IMG/VR virus record: IMGVR_UViG_3300025759_000704
Coordinates: 1-23,710 of that record
DNA from: a virus
Length of the DNA: 23,710 bases
Reading direction: 5' to 3' (one strand)
Shown: positions 8,338 through 23,426 of the stretch, piece by piece
Position numbering within the stretch: the stretch's first letter is position 1
Layout: the number at the start of each line of letters is the position of its first letter
The notes under the pieces: generated by a model
What the model saw: only the letters and a program-made list of their open reading frames with translations
Told to the model about the DNA's origin: nothing
Database searches by the model: none
Position numbers and translations under genes: made by a program

Positions 8338-8461
8338 TCGCAAGCCGGGAATGTATGAGACCAAGAGCGAGGCGCTACTCGCCCTTGGCCCGGTCGTCGT
8401 CGTTGGTGCGCTGTTCATTGGGGCGATCGTCTACGCCGTCCTCAAGATGACAGCGGCATGA
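8330..8461 (+). CDS. Small single-pass membrane protein
   Basis: A 43-residue protein with a charged N-terminus and one strong transmembrane helix (about residues 19-39, rich in V, G, A, L and I), ending just after it in KMTAA. The GTG start was chosen because it overlaps the lipoprotein stop and has GTAAGG at about 9 nt; an internal ATG would give a 36-residue form. It could be a partner of the lipoprotein or a holin-like peptide, but it has no periplasmic coiled coil as inner-membrane spanins have. No family was recognised. Confidence 0.6.
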   Translation: MTDRKPGMYETKSEALLALGPVVVVGALFIGAIVYAVLKMTAA

Positions 8462-8928
8462 TCGAGGAAGAGGACGCCCGAGAAGAGCAGTACGAGCTCG
8501 ACGCTGTGATGATGCAGCTACAACACGATTGGAGACGCCTTCTGGCGTCTCACCATAACTTCACTCGCTCGTTCAAGGACGAGCTAGACGCCCTCCTCAG
8601 AGCATCACAGAGCCTGCTACCCGAGCAGGTGGACGACGTGATCTCATGCGGTCCACTAGAGGCGAGCCTCCTGTCTGGTCGCTGCACTTGGAGGGGCCGA
8701 GCTGTTCCCCTGTCCCATATGGAGCTGAAGCTAACCAGCACCTTAGCCAAGCGTCCAGATCAGCTATACGACCGCGACTTCCTGATGAGCGCTTTTATAC
8801 CGGACGGAGACAGCGATCGTCTGGTCGACAGCCACATAAAGCGCATTCGACGCAAGTTTGAGGCGGTCGATCGGGACTTCCGGCAAATATACACGATTTA
8901 CTCAGCAGGCTATAGGTGGAACCCATGA
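8458..8928 (+). CDS. Stand-alone OmpR/PhoB-type winged-helix DNA-binding protein
   Basis: A 156-residue protein whose residues 66-156 match the effector domain of two-component response regulators (Trans_reg_C type). It shows an N-terminal sheet (CTWRGRAVPLSHMELKL), the recognition region RLVDSHIKRIRRKF (121-134) and the final wing hairpin IYTIYSAGYRWNP (144-156). The receiver domain with its phosphorylated aspartate is absent; residues 1-60 are instead acidic and helical, perhaps for dimer formation. It should bind DNA without a phosphorylation switch, and could control late phage genes or mimic a host regulator such as ChvI. It overlaps its neighbours on both sides by ATGA and precedes the packaging genes, a fitting place for a late-gene regulator. 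The fold call is firm and the role is inferred. Confidence 0.85.
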   Translation: MIEEEDAREEQYELDAVMMQLQHDWRRLLASHHNFTRSFKDELDALLRASQSLLPEQVDDVISCGPLEASLLSGRCTWRGRAVPLSHMELKLTSTLAKRPDQLYDRDFLMSAFIPDGDSDRLVDSHIKRIRRKFEAVDRDFRQIYTIYSAGYRWNP

Positions 8929-9764: not shown

Positions 9765-10990
9765 GCTATCAAGGCACGATCAGGAAGAGCTCGGAGCTGC
9801 CGATCGAGGTCGCCGAGAAGATGGTGCCAGCCCTTACGCCGTCCAGATACAAGGCGCTCTATGGTGGCAGAGGTGGCACAAAGTCGTATTTCGCAGCCGA
9901 CTACACCGTCGCCAAAGCGCTAGAGGGCTGGAAGTGCCTCTGTGTTCGTGAGGTGCAGCTCTCCCTCGATCAATCCTCGAAGGCACTGATCGAGAGCCGC
10001 ATCTACTCACACGGATTGCAGGATGACTTCCGCATCCTGAAGAGCCATATCGAGAGCCGCAATGGTGGGCGGATAGAGTTCAAGGGGATGCAGCAGTTCA
10101 ACGCTGCGAACATCAAGTCGCTCGAAGGCTACCATCTCGCATGGTGGGAGGAGGCGCACACCGCCTCTCAGTATGCGATCGACCTACTGACCCCGACGAT
10201 CCGGGCCGCCAAGTCGGAGCTCATATTCACATGGAACCCCGAGTTCCCCGAAGACCCGGTCGACCAGATGTTCCGAGGGCCGAACCCGGTATCTGGGGCA
10301 ATCCTGATCGAGTGCAGCTCGAACGATAATCCTTGGCTGCCTGACGTCCTACGCAACGAACGCTCCGATCTGTATCGCAGAGACCCGGAGAAGGCCGCAT
10401 GGGTTTGGGGCGGCTCATACCGCACGATCTCCGACGCCAACATCCTCAAGGGCCTATACAGGGCCGAGGCGTTCGAGGCTCAACCACATTGGGACGGGCC
10501 TTATCAGGGCCTCGACTTCGGCTTCGCTAATGACCCGAGTGCAGCAATCAGGCTGTGGATATGGGGCAAGTCGCTCTACGTTGAGCACGCCGTCGGCACC
10601 ATAGCCCTCGACATAGACATAACCGAGCAATACATGATCGACCGCGTGCCGGATTGGGACAGATACCCGATCAGGTGCGACAACGCACGACCAGAGAGCA
10701 TCTCATACCTCAACAAACACGGAGCAGGGACTTACTCAGCGGCTAAGAAGTGGCCGGGAAGTATCGAAGACGGGATCGCATGGCTCAGGAGCTTCGACGA
10801 GATCGTCGTTCACCCCACAACAGCGCAGCCATTCCTCAAGGAGTGTAAGCGCTATTCGTACAAGACAAACAAAGCAGGCGACGTTATGCCTGCCGTTGAG
10901 GACAAGGACAATCATTGGATGGACGCCGCACGCTATGCCGCCGCGCCGTTGATCCGGGCGCAAGGTGCGCCTTCAATCAGGAGCCTATGA
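9761..10990 (+). CDS. terL: Terminase large subunit (packaging ATPase/nuclease)
   Basis: A 409-residue packaging motor that drives DNA into the prohead and cuts it. The ATPase half shows a Walker A variant GGRGGTKS (35-42), Walker B with catalytic acid in LAWWEEAH (127-133) and the coupling motif FTWNPEFPEDP. The RNase H-like nuclease half shows the three acidic positions GLDFGFANDPS (D252), RCDNARPES (D307) and DNHWMDAARYAA (D388). The form resembles the PBSX/Terminase_3 group. The start is a GTG that overlaps the small-subunit stop (GTGA), with GAGG just upstream; an upstream in-frame ATG would add 11 residues inside the previous gene. All key residues are present, so it should be active. 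Confidence 0.95.
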   Translation: MSYQGTIRKSSELPIEVAEKMVPALTPSRYKALYGGRGGTKSYFAADYTVAKALEGWKCLCVREVQLSLDQSSKALIESRIYSHGLQDDFRILKSHIESRNGGRIEFKGMQQFNAANIKSLEGYHLAWWEEAHTASQYAIDLLTPTIRAAKSELIFTWNPEFPEDPVDQMFRGPNPVSGAILIECSSNDNPWLPDVLRNERSDLYRRDPEKAAWVWGGSYRTISDANILKGLYRAEAFEAQPHWDGPYQGLDFGFANDPSAAIRLWIWGKSLYVEHAVGTIALDIDITEQYMIDRVPDWDRYPIRCDNARPESISYLNKHGAGTYSAAKKWPGSIEDGIAWLRSFDEIVVHPTTAQPFLKECKRYSYKTNKAGDVMPAVEDKDNHWMDAARYAAAPLIRAQGAPSIRSL

Positions 10991-10991
10991 G

Positions 10992-12242
10992 ATGGGCATG
11001 TTCGACTTTCTACGCAAAGCATCAGAGACCAGCAGGCTCCTAGTGGTGAACCCCGGGCAGCCGAAGTGGACGCCGAGGAACTACACGTCGTTCGCAAAGG
11101 AGGCGTACAGCTATAACGTCGTCGCCTACCAATCCATCAACCGGATCGGGGATGCGATCGCGACCATAGACTTCGACGTCTGGAAGGACGACAAGCCGGT
11201 CGAGGGGCCTCACCCTCTCAAGGAGCTGTGGAAGAAGCCGAACGCACAGCAAGCAGGCGGCGAATACATCAGGGCCGTGATTGGCTATCTGATGATCGCG
11301 GGCAACTCATACGCAGAGCAGGTGACAGGCGAAGGCGGTCGACCCGTCGAGCTGCACGTTCCCCGAGCCGACCGCATGAAGGTCGTGCCAGATGCAGAGG
11401 GCCTCGTCGCCTCTTACGTCTACAAGCACAACGGCAAGCAAGTGAGGTGGGACGTCGACCCCCTTACAGGCAAGGGCGACATCCTGCACCTGAAGACGTT
11501 CAACCCTCTCGATGATTACTACGGTATGAGCCCGGTCGAGGCTGGAGCCTTCGCGATCGACCAGCACAACGAGAGCATGAAGTGGATGCAGGCGCTCCTA
11601 CAGAACAGTGCCAGACCATCCGGCGCACTGGTTGCCAAAGAGGGCAGCGTCCTCGGCGACGAGCAGTTCTCGCGGCTGAAGGCACAGATTGAGGATCAGT
11701 ATTCAGGCTCTGCGAACGCAGGGCGGCCAATGCTCCTAGAGAACGGCCTGTCGTGGCAGCAAATGGGCTTCTCTCCTAACGATATGGGCGCACTTGAGAC
11801 TAAGTTCTCTTCGGCTCGCGACGTTGCGCTCGCCTTCGGCGTGCCTGCACAGCTCCTCGGCATACCCGGGGACAACACCTATTCAAACTATCGGGAGGCA
11901 AGGCTCGCTTTCTACGAGGACACGATCCTTCCTCTGCTCGGTTATCTGCTAGGGGAGTTTAACTCGTGGTTTCAGGAGCCGTTTGACGGCGCTTACCTCA
12001 AGCCCGATATGGACAACATTCCGGCGATCGCGGAGAAGCGGCAAGAGCTATGGGACGCGATCGACAGCAGCTCGGAGCTCACGATCAACGAGAAGCGGGA
12101 AGCCAAGGGCTACCCGGCACTTGAGACCGTGGTGCCCGGTGAAGACGGGAACCGCCTCCTTGCCCCACAGCAGCGCAACACAGCAGCGTTGAACACTGAC
12201 GAGGGCAAAGCAATAGCGGCACGGCTCGCCTTTGGGACGTAG
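10992..12242 (+). CDS. Portal protein, HK97-like
   Basis: A 416-residue portal of the HK97/lambdoid Phage_portal type. Twelve copies would form the ring through which DNA enters and leaves the capsid. Typical stretches are YNVVAYQSINRIGDAIATI near the N-terminus, GNSYAEQV, HLKTFNPLDDYYGMSPVEAG, and LLGIPGDNTYSNYREARLAFYEDTILPLL in the stem and wing region (quoted in parts here: LLGIPGDNTYSNYREAR, then AFYEDTILPLL). The ATG used has AGGAG at 8 nt and lies just after the terminase stop. Another ATG two codons further on is possible. It sits in the standard order terminase, portal, minor head protein. Confidence 0.93.
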   Translation: MGMFDFLRKASETSRLLVVNPGQPKWTPRNYTSFAKEAYSYNVVAYQSINRIGDAIATIDFDVWKDDKPVEGPHPLKELWKKPNAQQAGGEYIRAVIGYLMIAGNSYAEQVTGEGGRPVELHVPRADRMKVVPDAEGLVASYVYKHNGKQVRWDVDPLTGKGDILHLKTFNPLDDYYGMSPVEAGAFAIDQHNESMKWMQALLQNSARPSGALVAKEGSVLGDEQFSRLKAQIEDQYSGSANAGRPMLLENGLSWQQMGFSPNDMGALETKFSSARDVALAFGVPAQLLGIPGDNTYSNYREARLAFYEDTILPLLGYLLGEFNSWFQEPFDGAYLKPDMDNIPAIAEKRQELWDAIDSSSELTINEKREAKGYPALETVVPGEDGNRLLAPQQRNTAALNTDEGKAIAARLAFGT

Positions 12243-13884
12243 AGAAGACATCGAGGCCGAGCTTGCACTGCAAGATCGGGCCGTTGAGCGTCACGAGCGC
12301 AAGATCGCCAAGGCGATAAAGGACGCAATGCTTCAGGTGGCAACCGAGCTCCGGGCAACGCTGAACCCCGATCTTCCATTCGACCACTTCAGACGGATCG
12401 AGGAGGCTATGGGCGATCTCTATCGGGACGTCACACGCAGCATAGCAGCCTCGATGATCGACCGCTTCAAGTCTGGTTTCGAGCACTTGGAGACCAAGGA
12501 CGACAACGACGGCTTCTACGAGCGTATCTGGCAAGAGTACCTGAACCAATACGGCGGGACGAGGATCGCACAGATCAGCGAGACGACCCGCAGGCAGATC
12601 GTCGCCCTGATCGACAAGGGCCTCAGAGACGGCCTTTCTCTCGACGAGATAGCCGGAGAGATCAGGATGCGAGCTCCTGATATGTCGGCGCTACGAGCTC
12701 ACACGATCGCACGCACAGAGACGCACTCTGCCTCGATGTATGCCAGCCTTCAGAGCGCAAAGCAGTCGACGGTCGAGCTCCTGAAGGAGTGGGTATCTGT
12801 CGAGGACAGCAGGACAAGGGACTTCGGAGAGGGCGACGGCGTTGTCGACTTCTACGATCACCGCTCGATGAACGGCGTCAAGGTGCCGATCGACGACCCA
12901 TTCGAGGTGCCGAACAAGCTCGGAGGGAGCGAGAAGCTCATGTTCCCGGGCGATCCGGCAGGCTCGGCGGCTAATATAATCAACTGCCGGTGTGGGCAGG
13001 TCTACGTCGACACAGACGAAGACGAGGTCGAGGACGACGTTCCCCCGGCTATCGAGGCAACAGCTCCAGCATTTAGATATAAGACAATAAAAGACCCGGA
13101 GCCTACAGAGGACGCCTTTAGAGCGTTTATTATTAGCAACGGAATAGCAAAGAAAGCGGACTTTTCAGGGGTAGACTATGAGAAAGTCGCGCCTCACTTG
13201 CGACAGTTTCTTGAGGTAAAGGAGCGCTTTGACCTAGACCCCATGTGGATAGTAGGCCCCATTGAGAACGCAAACCCAAATTGGCTAGGGGACAGAAGAC
13301 CTCTAGCCTCGTTCTACCCTGCAATGGATGAATTGAGCCTCGACACCGGGCCCAACTTTATGAAGCCGACCGGCACTAGGGGCATCTGGAACATGCCAAA
13401 GCAGTTTGGAGACGATGAAACATGGGCAAGGCAAAACTTCTATACGGACAAGTCAAGAAAAGAGGGCACTTATTTAGAGATGCGAGAAGCGGCTGTCGGG
13501 TATCTGGACGAGGACCTCACCGTCAGACTTGACCGATCTCGGGAGAGCGCGAGCTTTGGCTTTACTGTCGAGGACGACATGCTCAGTCCTGCCACGTTCG
13601 AGAGCCGAAAAGCCGCGACAGTCTACCATGAGTTCGGGCACGTCGTGCACTTAGCAAACACTAAAAACCCGGGAATGAGCGAGGCAATAGACACTTTCAA
13701 TGAGCAGGTAGTTCCGCACTACACCGGGTGGAGTTACTTACTCTCCGACTACGCCTCGACTAATGAGAAGGAGTATGTAGCAGAAGCGTTCTCCCTTTAT
13801 ATGAGAGGGGACGTCGACGAGTTCTATCGTATTCACCCTGACCTTCTCTCTATATTTCAACAGTATGACAGAGGAGCGTTATGA
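12232..13884 (+). CDS. MuF-type minor head protein fused to zincin metallopeptidase domain
   Basis: A 550-residue fusion. Residues 100-257 are a Mu gpF/SPP1 gp7-like head morphogenesis domain (ARTETHSAS; VSVEDSRTRD; FPGDPAGSAANIINCRCG), which sits at the portal and enters the virion. An acidic linker (DTDEDEVEDDV, 260-270) leads to a second domain, residues 280-550, with the zinc-peptidase motif HEFGH (466-470) and a plausible third ligand in EYVAEAF (E518). The DNA of this second part is poorer in GC (26 of 60 bases at 13081-13140, against 37 of 60 at 12241-12300), which suggests a separately acquired module. MuF proteins with variable C-terminal toxin domains are a known class of phage polymorphic toxins. 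The start is uncertain: a TTG overlapping the portal stop is used, without a clear ribosome site. Substrate unknown. Confidence 0.85.
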   Translation: MGRREDIEAELALQDRAVERHERKIAKAIKDAMLQVATELRATLNPDLPFDHFRRIEEAMGDLYRDVTRSIAASMIDRFKSGFEHLETKDDNDGFYERIWQEYLNQYGGTRIAQISETTRRQIVALIDKGLRDGLSLDEIAGEIRMRAPDMSALRAHTIARTETHSASMYASLQSAKQSTVELLKEWVSVEDSRTRDFGEGDGVVDFYDHRSMNGVKVPIDDPFEVPNKLGGSEKLMFPGDPAGSAANIINCRCGQVYVDTDEDEVEDDVPPAIEATAPAFRYKTIKDPEPTEDAFRAFIISNGIAKKADFSGVDYEKVAPHLRQFLEVKERFDLDPMWIVGPIENANPNWLGDRRPLASFYPAMDELSLDTGPNFMKPTGTRGIWNMPKQFGDDETWARQNFYTDKSRKEGTYLEMREAAVGYLDEDLTVRLDRSRESASFGFTVEDDMLSPATFESRKAATVYHEFGHVVHLANTKNPGMSEAIDTFNEQVVPHYTGWSYLLSDYASTNEKEYVAEAFSLYMRGDVDEFYRIHPDLLSIFQQYDRGAL

Positions 13885-14060
13885 GAGACCCAAAGAAGCG
13901 ACCATCGGACCTAATTCGTGAAGTGCTCGAAGCTCCACCGGAGCAAAGAGAGGAGCTTGCCGCTAGGCTCCTGTCTGAGTACGAGAACAGCGACACAGAG
14001 CGCGTCGAGATGTGGCTAGAGGAGGCACTAGCCCTAGAACCAGTGGACAGGAAGGGCTGA
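13881..14060 (+). CDS. Small antitoxin-like protein, candidate partner of the MuF toxin domain
   Basis: A 59-residue, highly charged helical protein whose start overlaps the stop of the MuF fusion (ATGA). The segment EQREELAARLLSEY (21-34) followed by ERVEMWLEEALALE (40-53) resembles the short 'addiction module' antitoxin-like family (Unstab_antitox), whose members have an R/E-E-L-A-x-x-L-L-S helix and a W-x-E-E-A helix. The position right after a toxin-like domain, with translational coupling, is where immunity or antitoxin genes are found. It could equally be a small head protein. The SD-like GAGGAG lies 5-10 nt upstream within the previous gene. The ORF is certain by overlap and composition; its role is inferred. 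Confidence 0.65.
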   Translation: MRDPKKRPSDLIREVLEAPPEQREELAARLLSEYENSDTERVEMWLEEALALEPVDRKG

Positions 14061-14061
14061 A

Positions 14062-14115
14062 ATGGCATATATAGACGGCGACACAGCACACGGTAGGCGC
14101 ATCGCATGGACTTGA
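14062..14115 (+). CDS. Possible 17-codon minigene before the protease gene
   Basis: An ATG with a very good ribosome site (AGGAAGGG, 6 nt) opens a 17-residue frame (MAYIDGDTAHGRRIAWT) whose stop overlaps the protease start region. It may be a leader that couples translation to the protease gene, which has only a weak ribosome site (GGTAGG) of its own, or a remnant of a lost gene. No function can be assigned. Confidence 0.3.
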   Translation: MAYIDGDTAHGRRIAWT

Positions 14116-14789
14116 AGCATTTAGACGTCGATCTTGAGGTCAAGCAAATCTCGGACACAGGCGAGTTTGCAGGCTACGCCTCAACAAGCGGAAACGTAGA
14201 CCGGGGCGGCGACATAGTCGAGGTCGGAGCCTTCAAGGTCTCCCTCGATCAGTACGCACAGAAGGGCAAGTTTCCCAAGATGCTCTGGAACCATGACCCG
14301 AACAAGATCGTCGGCGTCTGGACCGATATGCGAGAAGACGAGAAGGGCCTCCTCGTTAATGGCCGCATGATCGTCGACACGCAGCTCGGCAAAGAGACAC
14401 ATATCCTGATGCAACAAGGCGCGATCGACAGCATGTCGATTGGCTACAAGACAATCGAGGCAGACTTCGAGGGCGAGAACGCAAGCGTCAGACGCTTGAA
14501 ACAGCTTGAGCTCTGGGAAGTCTCCCTTGTCACTTTTCCAATGAACCCCGAGGCCGCGATCACAGCCGTGAAGCGTCTCGATCACATTGGTGACGTTGAG
14601 CGCATACTGCGAGAGGCAGGTGTCGCCAACAAGTTCGCGAAGCTCGTCGCCCTTTATGGGTACGAGGGCGCGATCAAACGTCTGGACGGACAGCGGGAAG
14701 CTGACGCACTGGCGAAAACACAGGACGACAACGATCTTCGTCGTCTTTTCGCTAACCTCAACACCCGAAAGGGGATCAGCAATGTCTGA
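14106..14789 (+). CDS. HK97-family prohead maturation protease
   Basis: A 227-residue serine protease that trims the capsid protein and scaffold during head maturation. The N-terminal part has GEFAGYASTSGNVDRGGDIV, the usual opening of the family. The catalytic histidine is in LWNHDP (H63) and the serine in DSMSIGY (S111), with ELWEVSLVTFPMNPEA as the following conserved strand. The C-terminal 70 residues are helical and charged, and could act as scaffold. The gene lies directly before the major capsid gene and overlaps it by 8 nt, the common order in HK97-type phages. Confidence 0.93.
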   Translation: MDLKHLDVDLEVKQISDTGEFAGYASTSGNVDRGGDIVEVGAFKVSLDQYAQKGKFPKMLWNHDPNKIVGVWTDMREDEKGLLVNGRMIVDTQLGKETHILMQQGAIDSMSIGYKTIEADFEGENASVRRLKQLELWEVSLVTFPMNPEAAITAVKRLDHIGDVERILREAGVANKFAKLVALYGYEGAIKRLDGQREADALAKTQDDNDLRRLFANLNTRKGISNV

Positions 14790-21198: not shown

Positions 21199-21525
21199 AT
21201 GCCTGATTGGCGAATATACTACGACACTGGCACGTATGACAGCAATCAGGGGGAGCCGCATCAGGCTCCCTCGGTCGGCTTCATTGTGGCTGTGGGGTAT
21301 GATGAAGCAGGTGATCGCTTTCTAATGCAGGGCTGGTCGCACTACTGCTTCGATAAGGCCAGCAATCAATGGTGGGGCATGGACGACATGGGGGTCTTCG
21401 ACAGGCTCCGGCGTAATCTGGTCTATGCGTATAAAGAGGGCCGCACGGTTACCAAGTCGGAATGGAACGCGATTATGGAACGCGCTCACAAAGACCCCGA
21501 CTTTCCGTTCGGTGTTAAGAGATGA
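21199..21525 (+). CDS. Small aromatic-rich phage protein, unknown function
   Basis: A 108-residue protein with the notable stretch WSHYCFDKASNQWWGMDDMG (45-64), rich in Trp, Tyr and Met. Its N-terminus is beta-rich (WRIYYDTGTYDSNQ) and its C-terminal 40 residues are helical and charged (RLRRNLVYAYKEGRTVTKSE). Similar short proteins occur among phage tail genes without known role. AAGGGG stands 7 nt before the ATG and the stop overlaps the next start (ATGA). Confidence 0.65.
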   Translation: MPDWRIYYDTGTYDSNQGEPHQAPSVGFIVAVGYDEAGDRFLMQGWSHYCFDKASNQWWGMDDMGVFDRLRRNLVYAYKEGRTVTKSEWNAIMERAHKDPDFPFGVKR

Positions 21526-23426
21526 CACACGTCAATCCGATCCTAAGACAAGACGCCTTCCGGGGCCGGGTAGACAGTGGCAACGAGGCAACCCCGACAT
21601 GGATCGTCGCAGCCGATACAAACTGGACGCAAGCGGTGGACACCGATTTTCGCGTGCGCTTTGTTATCCAAGAAACCGCAGGAGCGTCGAACCCGTCAAC
21701 GGTCACGCCTCTGGTCTTCTACTCCATAAACGGCGGAGGCTATGCGGCTGTCACAGCCTCGACGCCTATCCAATTTGGCACGTTTACCGGCGCGACTGAC
21801 GACGACGCCACGACAGCGCAGCTCGGAGCCGGGACGTTTGTCACCGGGAGACTTGACGATAGCGGAGCGGTGACGACTGCCGACATTCAAGGCAGCGAAA
21901 CGGAATATGAATACTGTCTGAGCATTGACAGCGCACAGGTCGCAAACAGCGACACGATCACGCTGCAAGTCTACGACAGCGCAACTCCTCTCGATCAATA
22001 CGGCTCTGTGCCTTCGATCACGGTGCTGGAGGCAGACCCACCGATCGAGGCGGATATTCCGGCGACTGCTTACACGCTCACGGCTCCGGTTCCGACGTTC
22101 GACATTGTCACCGTCACCGACTTCGACATCGGCCTCACGACCTACACATTCGCGGCACCGGCACCGACATTCCGCGTCGATACTGTCACCAACTTCGACA
22201 TCGGCCTCACGACCTACGCGCTCACGGCACCGGCTCCGGCGTACACCGAAGCGACCGGCTATATGATCGGCGCGACCACTTACACCCTCACGGCACCGGC
22301 TTCGATCCTGACACAAGAGCCACTCTTCAGATTGCAGACGGGTGACGTTCTTGATCTGTCGAACCCGGCGATCCCGGGAGCGTTACAGTTCTACGCCTTC
22401 CCGGCGATCGACGTCGGCCTCACAGCCTACACTCTCACGGCACCGGCTCCGTCCTTTACCGAAGCAGTGGGCTATTTAGTAGGCGCAACGACCTACACTC
22501 TCACGGCACCGGCTCCGTCCTTCACCTCGACAACCGGCTATGTGGCAGAAACCGCAGCCTATACGCTGACCGCACAGACGCCGATCCTGACACCGGAGCC
22601 GCTGTTCAAGTTGCAGACGGGTGAAGTGCTCGATCTGTCGAACCCGCTGATCCCGGGAGCGTTGCAGCTCTATTCGTCTCCACCGATAGACGCCGACATA
22701 GGTGTCACGGCCTACGCACTCACGGCACCGGCTCCGTCCTTCACAGAAGTGACTGATCTCGACATAGGCGTCACGGCCTACACAGAGACCGCTCAGACGC
22801 CAATCCTGACGCCGGAGCCGCTGTTCAAATTGCAGACGGGTGAAGTGCTCGACCTGTCAAACCCGCTGATCCCGGGAGCCTTGCAGCTCTACGCCTTCCA
22901 AGCGTCCATAGGTGTCACGGCCTACACAGAGACCGCACAGACGCCAATCCTGACACCGGAGCCATTGTTCAAGTTGCAGACGGGTGAAGTGCTCGACCTG
23001 TCAAACCCGCTGATCCCGGGCGCTTTGCAGCTTTACGCCTTCCCACCTGTCGAGGCTGACGTCGGCGTCACAGCCTACGCTCTCACGGCACCGGCTCCGA
23101 CCTACACCGTAGAGCTGGACCTTAATGTAGGTGTAACTGCCTACATCCTCACGGCGTTCGCTCCGGGTATCACGACGACCTCAGAGATCAACGTCGGGTC
23201 GACCGACTACACCTTGACCGTGCTCGACCTTACCTTCGATCTGCCGAGCATAACGAGGCCGGGACAGCAGACGTCGACGTCTGGGGGCAGCGCTGCAAAC
23301 TCGACAAACTCTGCCGGAAGTCGTAACAATACGGCAAGCGCTACCGGGTCAAAGAACCGCACGACAGACACGAGCACGCGAAACACGACTTCGGGCGGCA
23401 CAGACACCAAGAACAGGACGGGCTGA
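21522..23426 (+). CDS. Repeat-rich phage tail or surface protein
   Basis: A 634-residue protein in three parts. Residues 1-175 form a beta-sandwich-like domain seen in phage structural proteins (FRVRFVIQETAGASNP; LGAGTFVTGRLDDSG; SETEYEYCLSID). Residues 182-570 consist of repeats: a short one of about 20-25 residues centred on (I/V)G.TAYTLTAPAP (roughly 13 copies) and a long one of 30 residues (EPLFKLQTGEVLDLSNP in its middle) present four times. Residues 580-634 are a Ser/Thr/Asn/Gly/Arg tail, likely unfolded. There are no enzyme motifs. Copies are near-identical in DNA, so copy number may vary by recombination. It probably forms an extended fibrous or adhesive element on the virion. Confidence 0.75.
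   Translation: MTHVNPILRQDAFRGRVDSGNEATPTWIVAADTNWTQAVDTDFRVRFVIQETAGASNPSTVTPLVFYSINGGGYAAVTASTPIQFGTFTGATDDDATTAQLGAGTFVTGRLDDSGAVTTADIQGSETEYEYCLSIDSAQVANSDTITLQVYDSATPLDQYGSVPSITVLEADPPIEADIPATAYTLTAPVPTFDIVTVTDFDIGLTTYTFAAPAPTFRVDTVTNFDIGLTTYALTAPAPAYTEATGYMIGATTYTLTAPASILTQEPLFRLQTGDVLDLSNPAIPGALQFYAFPAIDVGLTAYTLTAPAPSFTEAVGYLVGATTYTLTAPAPSFTSTTGYVAETAAYTLTAQTPILTPEPLFKLQTGEVLDLSNPLIPGALQLYSSPPIDADIGVTAYALTAPAPSFTEVTDLDIGVTAYTETAQTPILTPEPLFKLQTGEVLDLSNPLIPGALQLYAFQASIGVTAYTETAQTPILTPEPLFKLQTGEVLDLSNPLIPGALQLYAFPPVEADVGVTAYALTAPAPTYTVELDLNVGVTAYILTAFAPGITTTSEINVGSTDYTLTVLDLTFDLPSITRPGQQTSTSGGSAANSTNSAGSRNNTASATGSKNRTTDTSTRNTTSGGTDTKNRTG
22305..23036 (+). repeat. Four copies of a 90-bp coding repeat
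   Basis: Copies lie at about 22305-22394, 22584-22673, 22803-22892 and 22947-23036. Copies two to four are almost identical in DNA; the first is more diverged (TQEPLFRLQTGDVL in place of TPEPLFKLQTGEVL). Shorter repeats coding TAYTLTAPAP lie between and around them (22065-23220). The near-identity at silent positions points to recent duplication. Confidence 0.85.

Follow-up and report, generated by a model that had tools for sequence, protein, structure and literature searches.

The copy number of MuF proteins is put at one to three per phage head, and gp7 of SPP1 is found in a complex with the portal (PMC5576092, PMC12226406). In the polymorphic toxins of the MuF type (Jamet et al. 2017), exemplified by Apk2 and Bxa, a MuF carrier encoded in the head module bears an exchangeable C-terminal enzyme and is accompanied by an adjacent small cognate open reading frame (ORF), and the small neighbours of Bxa and Apk2 are described as inhibitors (PMC11699363, PMC12226406). 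In the sections of the literature drawn upon here, toxin MuFs are reported in temperate phages only and metallopeptidases constitute 20% of 191 putative MuF toxins (PMC5576092), and the MuF toxins studied experimentally are alarmone synthetases (Apk2) and ADP-ribosyltransferases (Bxa and the EFV toxin). Fusion of MuF to a metallopeptidase is already known in kind. IMG/VR virus record IMGVR_UViG_3300025759_000704 (23.7 kb; the window, meaning the whole of this stretch of DNA, in whose coordinates all positions are given) encodes a head protein of 550 amino acids (12232..13884, + strand, start codon TTG) in which a MuF domain is joined to a predicted zincin metallopeptidase domain, and a 59-amino-acid partner ORF overlaps its end. 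The sequence comparisons presented below show that zincin and partner are swapped as one unit, and co-inherited, between better conserved flanks, and it is fairly probable that this cassette is a virion-carried protease effector with a small cognate partner, built in the mould of the MuF polymorphic toxins. The head protein gene and the cassette comprise the following features.

12232..13038, + strand: MuF carrier part, residues 1-269, with the acidic linker DTDEDEVEDD at its end (PF04233, phrog_2468, comparison with relatives).
13039..14086, + strand: variable cassette, consisting of the zincin domain and the partner ORF (blastn of relatives against the window).
13072..13884, + strand: predicted zincin metallopeptidase domain, residues 281-550 (AlphaFold2, VIA).
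13627..13641, + strand: HEFGH zinc-binding and catalytic motif, residues 466-470, with H466, E467 and H470 (alignment of 32 sequences).
13750..13752, + strand: Tyr507, candidate catalytic tyrosine, seven residues ahead of Glu514 (invariant in the alignment).
13771..13791, + strand: EYVAEAF, residues 514-520, in which Glu514 is the likely third zinc ligand and Glu518 is also invariant (alignment).
13881..14060, + strand: 59-amino-acid partner ORF, overlapping the zincin stop codon (ATGA) (similarity to fused tails, alignment with other partners).

When relatives were compared with the window by blastn, the match stopped at 13038 in L002 (99.5% DNA identity), at 13039 in L004 (91%), and at 13040 in L003 (99.3%) and L005 (67%); it began again at 14087 in L003, at 99.1% identity, and at 14274 in L005. 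Base 13038 is the end of the codon for residue 269, the last of the acidic linker. The C-termini of the window, L002 and L003 are 38-40% identical despite MuF parts that are 100% identical as protein. The C-terminus of L002 is 50% identical to that of L005 and 40% to that of the window, whereas its MuF part is 60% identical to that of L005 and 100% to that of the window. Because L002 is nearer to L005 in its C-terminus while its MuF part is identical to the window's, the comparison shows replacement by recombination rather than slow drift. The catalytic residues are kept in the window, L002, L003 and L005 (the L004 contig ends ahead of them). A variable C-terminus on a conserved N-terminus, which is one of the marks of MuF polymorphic toxins, is therefore found at this locus. 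Chimeric assembly of metagenome contigs at the linker would produce a similar picture, and the relatives are mostly IMG/VR contigs; since in each of four contigs the match to the window is lost within the three bases 13038-13040, and the pattern repeats in many other contigs and between named records (HTVC026P versus HTVC111P, HTVC112P and HTVC202P), such an artefact is scarcely credible.

An earlier description of this DNA, made from the letters alone (the sequence-only reading), had placed the element at 13072-13884 and had noted a drop in guanine plus cytosine (GC) content at the junction. The drop, from approximately 0.59 to approximately 0.52, was confirmed (most of the MuF part is at 0.58-0.60, the piece 12950-14149 at 0.51-0.53, and the DNA beyond it at 0.55-0.57). 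The boundaries have to be moved: similarity to relatives is lost at 13038-13040, and the variable piece extends to approximately 14086, thus including the previously unlisted 59-amino-acid ORF, the presence of which strengthens the case for a polymorphic toxin.

Exchange of the C-terminus was also found outside the window's own population. A scan with a distant relative as query gave 58 loci, some of which are contigs already listed under other numbers (e.g. L030 and L022). Carrier and C-terminus differ widely in conservation between L041 and L051 (97.6% identity in MuF, 57.5% in the C-terminus), between the Pelagibacter phage HTVC026P and L079 (97.2% and 57.4%), and between L022 and L035 (88% and 22%); pairs without a swap also exist, such as L074 and L083, in which the two parts are alike (83.4% and 82.6%). 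The 88%-identical MuF of L035 (3769-5285) is followed by a different HEYGH domain of approximately 400 amino acids and then by an unrelated 104-amino-acid ORF, and beyond MuF neither of these has a Pfam match at E <= 1.

Two scans were made with the carrier only; 31 of 32 loci were parsed from one (L120, of 66 amino acids only, was omitted) and 80 of 133 loci were kept from the other. The 98 loci with a complete C-terminus were thinned to 61 representatives at <95% identity, and because gaps were not scored as differences, three loci without the small ORF were merged into longer relatives, namely L183 and L179, which have no zincin, and L151, which is shortened. Among the 61 representatives, 54 have an HExxH C-terminal domain, in six motif classes labelled Z1 to Z6 (the window belongs to Z1), and seven have just 8-17 residues beyond the carrier. 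The carriers of L177 and L178 are 100% identical and end in a class Z1 and a class Z4 domain; L183 is without the cassette of approximately 1 kb, and its left and right DNA flanks are 96.5% and 98.4% identical to those of L177 and 99.2% and 97.6% identical to those of L178. By hhalign, Z2 is clearly joined with Z4 and Z3 with Z6, and there are weaker, partial links among some other classes; judged by these profiles, the classes amount to about three groups plus the singletons L166 and L035. Z3 occurs on the pelagiphage carrier and Z6 on MuF. The sequence-only reading had proposed that the C-terminus is exchangeable and that conservation in all relatives would mark it as an ordinary part of the head protein; in the relatives it was found to be swapped or absent.

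Named phages with and without the cassette were also found. HTVC026P has a zincin version of 608 residues followed by a 60-residue gene, and in HTVC111P, HTVC112P and HTVC202P, whose carriers are 65-71% identical to that of HTVC026P, a short head protein has the scaffold gene immediately next to it. If the latter three records are taken as viable isolates, the zincin would be dispensable for infectious particles. Kolga EXVC016S encodes a head-morphogenesis protein with this zincin and an overlapping gene of 56 amino acids, and locus L087 of Sphingobium sp. Leaf26 encodes a MuF-zincin protein and a 67-amino-acid ORF within a 964-kb contig, where the neighbouring genes look by eye like those for terminase, portal and capsid and appear prophage-like. 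Integrase and resolvase domains (PF00589, PF00239) were not matched in the window record, HTVC026P, Kolga or five IMG/VR records; several of these may be fragments, and the HTVC026P and Kolga records are complete. The full window protein matches 533 named-phage records, all at <60% identity and none covering 80% of the query, and the window terminase is <60% identical in all 1752 matching records. The zincin alone gave seven weak matches to named phages (best E 0.04). A viral-contig search with the zincin alone confirmed no relative, since diverged alleles escape exact peptide patterns; relatives did come up with the full-length protein and with alignments. The first of the genome scans confirmed no locus, and the second gave two loci. 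There is also a gene in HTVC026P (gp47; L199, 21400-21813), located among tail genes, that is annotated as a toxin-activating lysine-acyltransferase.

The small ORF accompanies the zincin at most loci. Its translation is probably coupled to that of the zincin, since it overlaps the zincin stop codon. An ORF of 50-110 amino acids starting between -45 and +12 of the zincin stop is present at 27 of the 33 non-redundant loci that have enough downstream sequence, compared with 2.4 expected from shuffles (the cysteine-rich ORF of lotta8-1 is among the 27 and is probably unrelated). Six loci have no separate ORF, and in three of them (L003, L005, L012) the piece is carried as a fused C-terminal tail; the partner of L002, a locus too short downstream to enter the count, is likewise fused. 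The window's partner is identical to the L012 tail at 24 of 46 residues (52%; E 5e-13 for that single comparison), and in the AlphaFold2 model of the L002 cassette the tail is predicted to form three helices behind a low-confidence linker (residues 288-299 of that model). Among the carrier representatives, the small ORF is found with 53 of 54 that bear a zincin and 1 of 7 that do not (Fisher p 9e-7, related phages being counted as independent). The exceptions are L118, zincin-less, with a membrane-like ORF unlike the partners, and L174, which has a zincin, no ORF and a shortened C-terminus.

Partner and zincin also diverge together. In loci of the pelagiphage type, partners average 52% identity when their zincins are of one class and 26% when the classes differ. 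Over 77 pairs, again with related phages counted as independent, partner identity rises with that of the zincin (rho 0.905, or 0.86 as a partial rank correlation given MuF, the best of 2000 within-cluster permutations being 0.58), and the corresponding partial correlation with MuF identity is -0.09. The gene downstream is often conserved again (90% identity in L039/L043 and L032/L033, 100% in L042/L049). In seven of nine estimable pairs, the partner has a ratio of nonsynonymous to synonymous substitution rates (dN/dS) of approximately 0.10-0.26. The net charge of the partner is negative in 49 of 53 cases (mean -6.9), and that of the C-termini averages +6.0.

Several of these observations would also suit a chaperone or loading adaptor that folds or docks the zincin, which would still be an effector, so that this role overlaps with that of a cognate inhibitor: fused zincin-partner forms exist, the overlapping start of the partner suggests co-assembly, and the divergence of the partner tracks that of the zincin. 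The small neighbours of Bxa and Apk2 are nevertheless inhibitors (PMC11699363, PMC12226406), and an acidic partner against a basic domain suits a blocker equally, so that the data do not separate the two roles; a chaperone is a real but lesser possibility.

The zinc-peptidase identity of the C-terminal domain is indicated by its active site and its predicted fold. In the alignment of 32 sequences, including the window, Y465, H466, E467, G469, H470, Y507, E514 and E518 are invariant and the phenylalanine of HEFGH is nearly so; by analogy, Glu514 is the likely third zinc ligand. Titles of PDB entries for PPEP-1 and PPEP-3 mention mutation of a tyrosine along with the catalytic glutamate, and Tyr507 is the candidate for the corresponding catalytic role. 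The AlphaFold2 model of the zincin domain, made from the same alignment, has a mean predicted local distance difference test score of 84 and a predicted template modelling score of 0.85. VIA-align ranked the C-terminal region of lethal factor first (Z 10.3, root-mean-square deviation (rmsd) 3.6 over 173 residues, 14% identity) and the Pro-Pro endopeptidase (PPEP) PPEP-1 next (Z 8.4, rmsd 3.2 over 156 residues of a 193-residue chain). Foldseek matches in the PDB were weak (best E 0.031, none at E <= 0.001), and among predicted viral structures two proteins were matched at E <= 0.001, one of them annotated as a minor capsid protein. The Pfam ATLF family (PF07737) scored 16.3 bits against a cut-off of 27.4, and the zincin was therefore not assigned to it. 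The model indicates a fold and active-site layout shared with lethal factor and the PPEPs, outside the ATLF family proper, and given a confident zincin-matching model, HEFGH is to be regarded as more than a chance motif. The group of lethal factor and the PPEPs (M34-like zincins in MEROPS) resembles the window's domain in fold, HExxH, tyrosine and glutamate, and differs in sequence (10-15% identity) and in location, the window's domain being part of a phage head protein.

The sequence-only reading had described a MuF domain, an acidic linker and approximately 270 further residues with HEFGH and EYVAEAF, had numbered the catalytic glutamate 467, and had allowed that a structure prediction without a zincin fold would count against it; the Pfam match and the motif positions agree with this layout, the numbering is correct, and the AlphaFold2 model has a zincin-type fold with the eight invariant residues in the alignment. 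Its remark that it did not recognise this zincin as a described toxin family has to be qualified by the remote relationship in fold to lethal factor and the PPEPs, and by the metallopeptidases already reported as a class on MuF proteins. There was no match for the zincin or the 59-amino-acid ORF in PHROGs or PADLOC, and matches in NCBIfam were all below cut-off.

The carrier part is recognised as Phage_Mu_F (PF04233) at residues 124-255 (E 7.4e-12, 46.4 bits against a cut-off of 29.6) and as the head morphogenesis family phrog_2468 (E 1.2e-44), with no Pfam domain other than MuF above cut-off in the MuF-zincin protein. Thus, an N-terminal MuF domain is found within a phage head module, as in MuF polymorphic toxins, and the genes on either side are as follows.

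10965..12242, + strand: portal protein, directly upstream of the MuF-zincin gene (PF04860, 248.1 bits).
14106..14789, + strand: S78 prohead protease, a separate gene directly downstream of the cassette, in the conserved flank (PF04586, 108.5 bits).

A capsid gene (PF05065) comes after the S78 prohead protease gene, which lies inside the right flank that is 99.1% identical between L003 and the window. This location in the head module is what might be expected if the C-terminus were an ordinary head-decorating or assembly domain that resembles a peptidase by coincidence. Since the zinc site, the tyrosine and the second glutamate do not vary in the 32 aligned sequences, named pelagiphages whose head module is complete lack the domain, and an S78 prohead protease is encoded separately by the adjoining gene, a purely structural role is very improbable. 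A role of the zincin in prohead maturation was set aside, given the separate S78 protease and the related phage records in which the zincin is missing.

In the mechanism that is proposed for a virion-carried effector, MuF would set one or a few copies of the protein at the portal side of the capsid, as for SPP1 gp7, and at one to three MuF copies per head, a catalytic cargo makes sense. The zincin would ride in the particle, would most likely enter the cell together with the DNA, and would there cleave a host protein. The partner, helical and approximately 60 amino acids long, may bind the zincin and keep it inactive during particle assembly, blocking being suggested by the inhibitory neighbours of Bxa and Apk2; a fused partner tail would be a zymogen-like domain in need of cleavage or displacement. 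Entry with the DNA, toxicity and inhibition by the partner are all inferred here. It is tempting to extend this to marine phages, including those of SAR11, as a polymorphic protease-inhibitor system in which several classes of zinc protease are injected with the DNA against different host or defence targets, and in which the partner shields the infected cell both from its own phage and from others of that type that co-infect it, but this picture is tentative and somewhat doubtful.

For the zincin itself, the main rival explanation is autoprocessing, in which the enzyme cuts MuF or the partner tail in the head or after entry, frees a piece, and has no host substrate. Autoprocessing is proposed for such metallopeptidases in polyvalent proteins, e.g. 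DdrB of P1, by Iyer et al. (PMC5512222), and the low-confidence linker before the fused tail of L002 could serve as a cleavage site. Against this, the protein has no releasable extra domain above cut-off, only MuF and one zincin; close relatives and named pelagiphages manage without the zincin; and a fixed MuF substrate should prevent 38-40% divergence, or replacement by another class, on carriers that are 100% identical. A processing protease is accordingly considered unlikely.

Delivery by a transferred protein is also suggested by the same zincin family on a different carrier. The Moritella plasmid pMR24a (L009) encodes a free zincin of 288 amino acids (tblastn E 1e-5 to the window's zincin) with the motifs LEV.ERF and HE.GH in common, in the gene order DarA (DarA_N and DarA_C above cut-off), zincin, overlapping 62-amino-acid ORF and InPase-type (inorganic pyrophosphatase) gene, and there is a second zincin-matching place in this record. 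DarA of P1 is among the examples of proteins transferred during invasion given by Iyer et al. (PMC5512222), and a zincin beside DarA is thus independent support for a transferred protein. A C-terminal domain that is common to other delivery contexts, here beside DarA and on a second head-protein family, is a further mark of MuF toxins that was observed. In a search for more Dar-linked zincins, plasmids gave only pMR24a and phages gave none. The same row of pMR24a genes also holds a DarA_N protein below cut-off, possibly as part of a dar-like operon. A free YHEFGH protein of 289 amino acids was seen in a Clostridiales metagenome-assembled genome (L088, 3413-4282), preceded by a gene that reads by eye as a conjugation-type ATPase.

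There are several points that weigh against a virion-carried effector with a cognate partner. L024, L026 and Hardycor1 have a zincin and no partner ORF, and Hardycor1 and lotta8-1 were found through weak matches alone (E 0.6 and 0.04). Related phages are counted as if they were independent in the Fisher and correlation values. The downstream gene is just 54-62% identical in several pelagiphage-type pairs, in which the right flank is therefore no sharp control, and the other two of the nine partner pairs have dN/dS of 0.68 and 0.84. Classes Z2 to Z6 are HExxH motif calls with no Pfam peptidase match above cut-off, the predicted fold being that of Z1 alone, and neither Pfam, PHROGs nor hhalign identifies the HTVC026P-type carrier as MuF, so that some of the evidence is drawn from a protein that has the MuF position and is unproven as MuF. 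The main difficulty is the fused tail. Of what characterises the immunity genes of MuF polymorphic toxins, the downstream position and co-inheritance are seen, and in L002, L003, L005 and L012 the partner is fused to its own protease, which would not be expected of an immunity protein that acts in trans and is compatible with a zymogen or chaperone as much as with an immunity protein.

Compared with described systems, the locus has a distinctive combination of features. It differs from the MuF polymorphic toxins in that the enzyme is a lethal-factor/PPEP-like zincin, that the alternatives among the 54 C-terminal representatives are other HExxH proteins, not nucleases or ADP-ribosyltransferases, and that two of the relatives are complete pelagiphage records in which no integrase was detected. 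It resembles the polyvalent proteins of phages and conjugative elements, which have metallopeptidase domains, in that the zincin is borne by a protein of MuF type or linked to Dar, which is probably transferred; one enzymatic domain was found here as against the two or more effector domains required of those proteins, and there was no PF18818 match. The likeness to P1-like Dar head proteins is through the free zincin and 62-amino-acid ORF beside the DarA gene of pMR24a, the window's zincin being fused to MuF and not a separate gene. Among the open-licence papers listed by literature searches, none was recognised that describes this zincin group on MuF together with its small partner, or the swapping of such cassettes among marine phages. 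Here swapping is resolved to the base pair in near-identical genomes, the protease ends come with a small partner that matches them, and the cassette is present in some named SAR11 phages and missing from others, and thus MuF-effector injection and the host substrates of phage-borne proteases become testable.

Two other genes of the window were noted. A winged-helix DNA-binding domain of the OmpR type (PF00486, 50 bits) is found in a 156-amino-acid protein encoded before the terminase genes (8458-8928), and a 634-amino-acid protein of repeated TLTAPAP-type units is encoded at 21522-23426, where 144 bp are duplicated in tandem (22763-23043, 93% matches).
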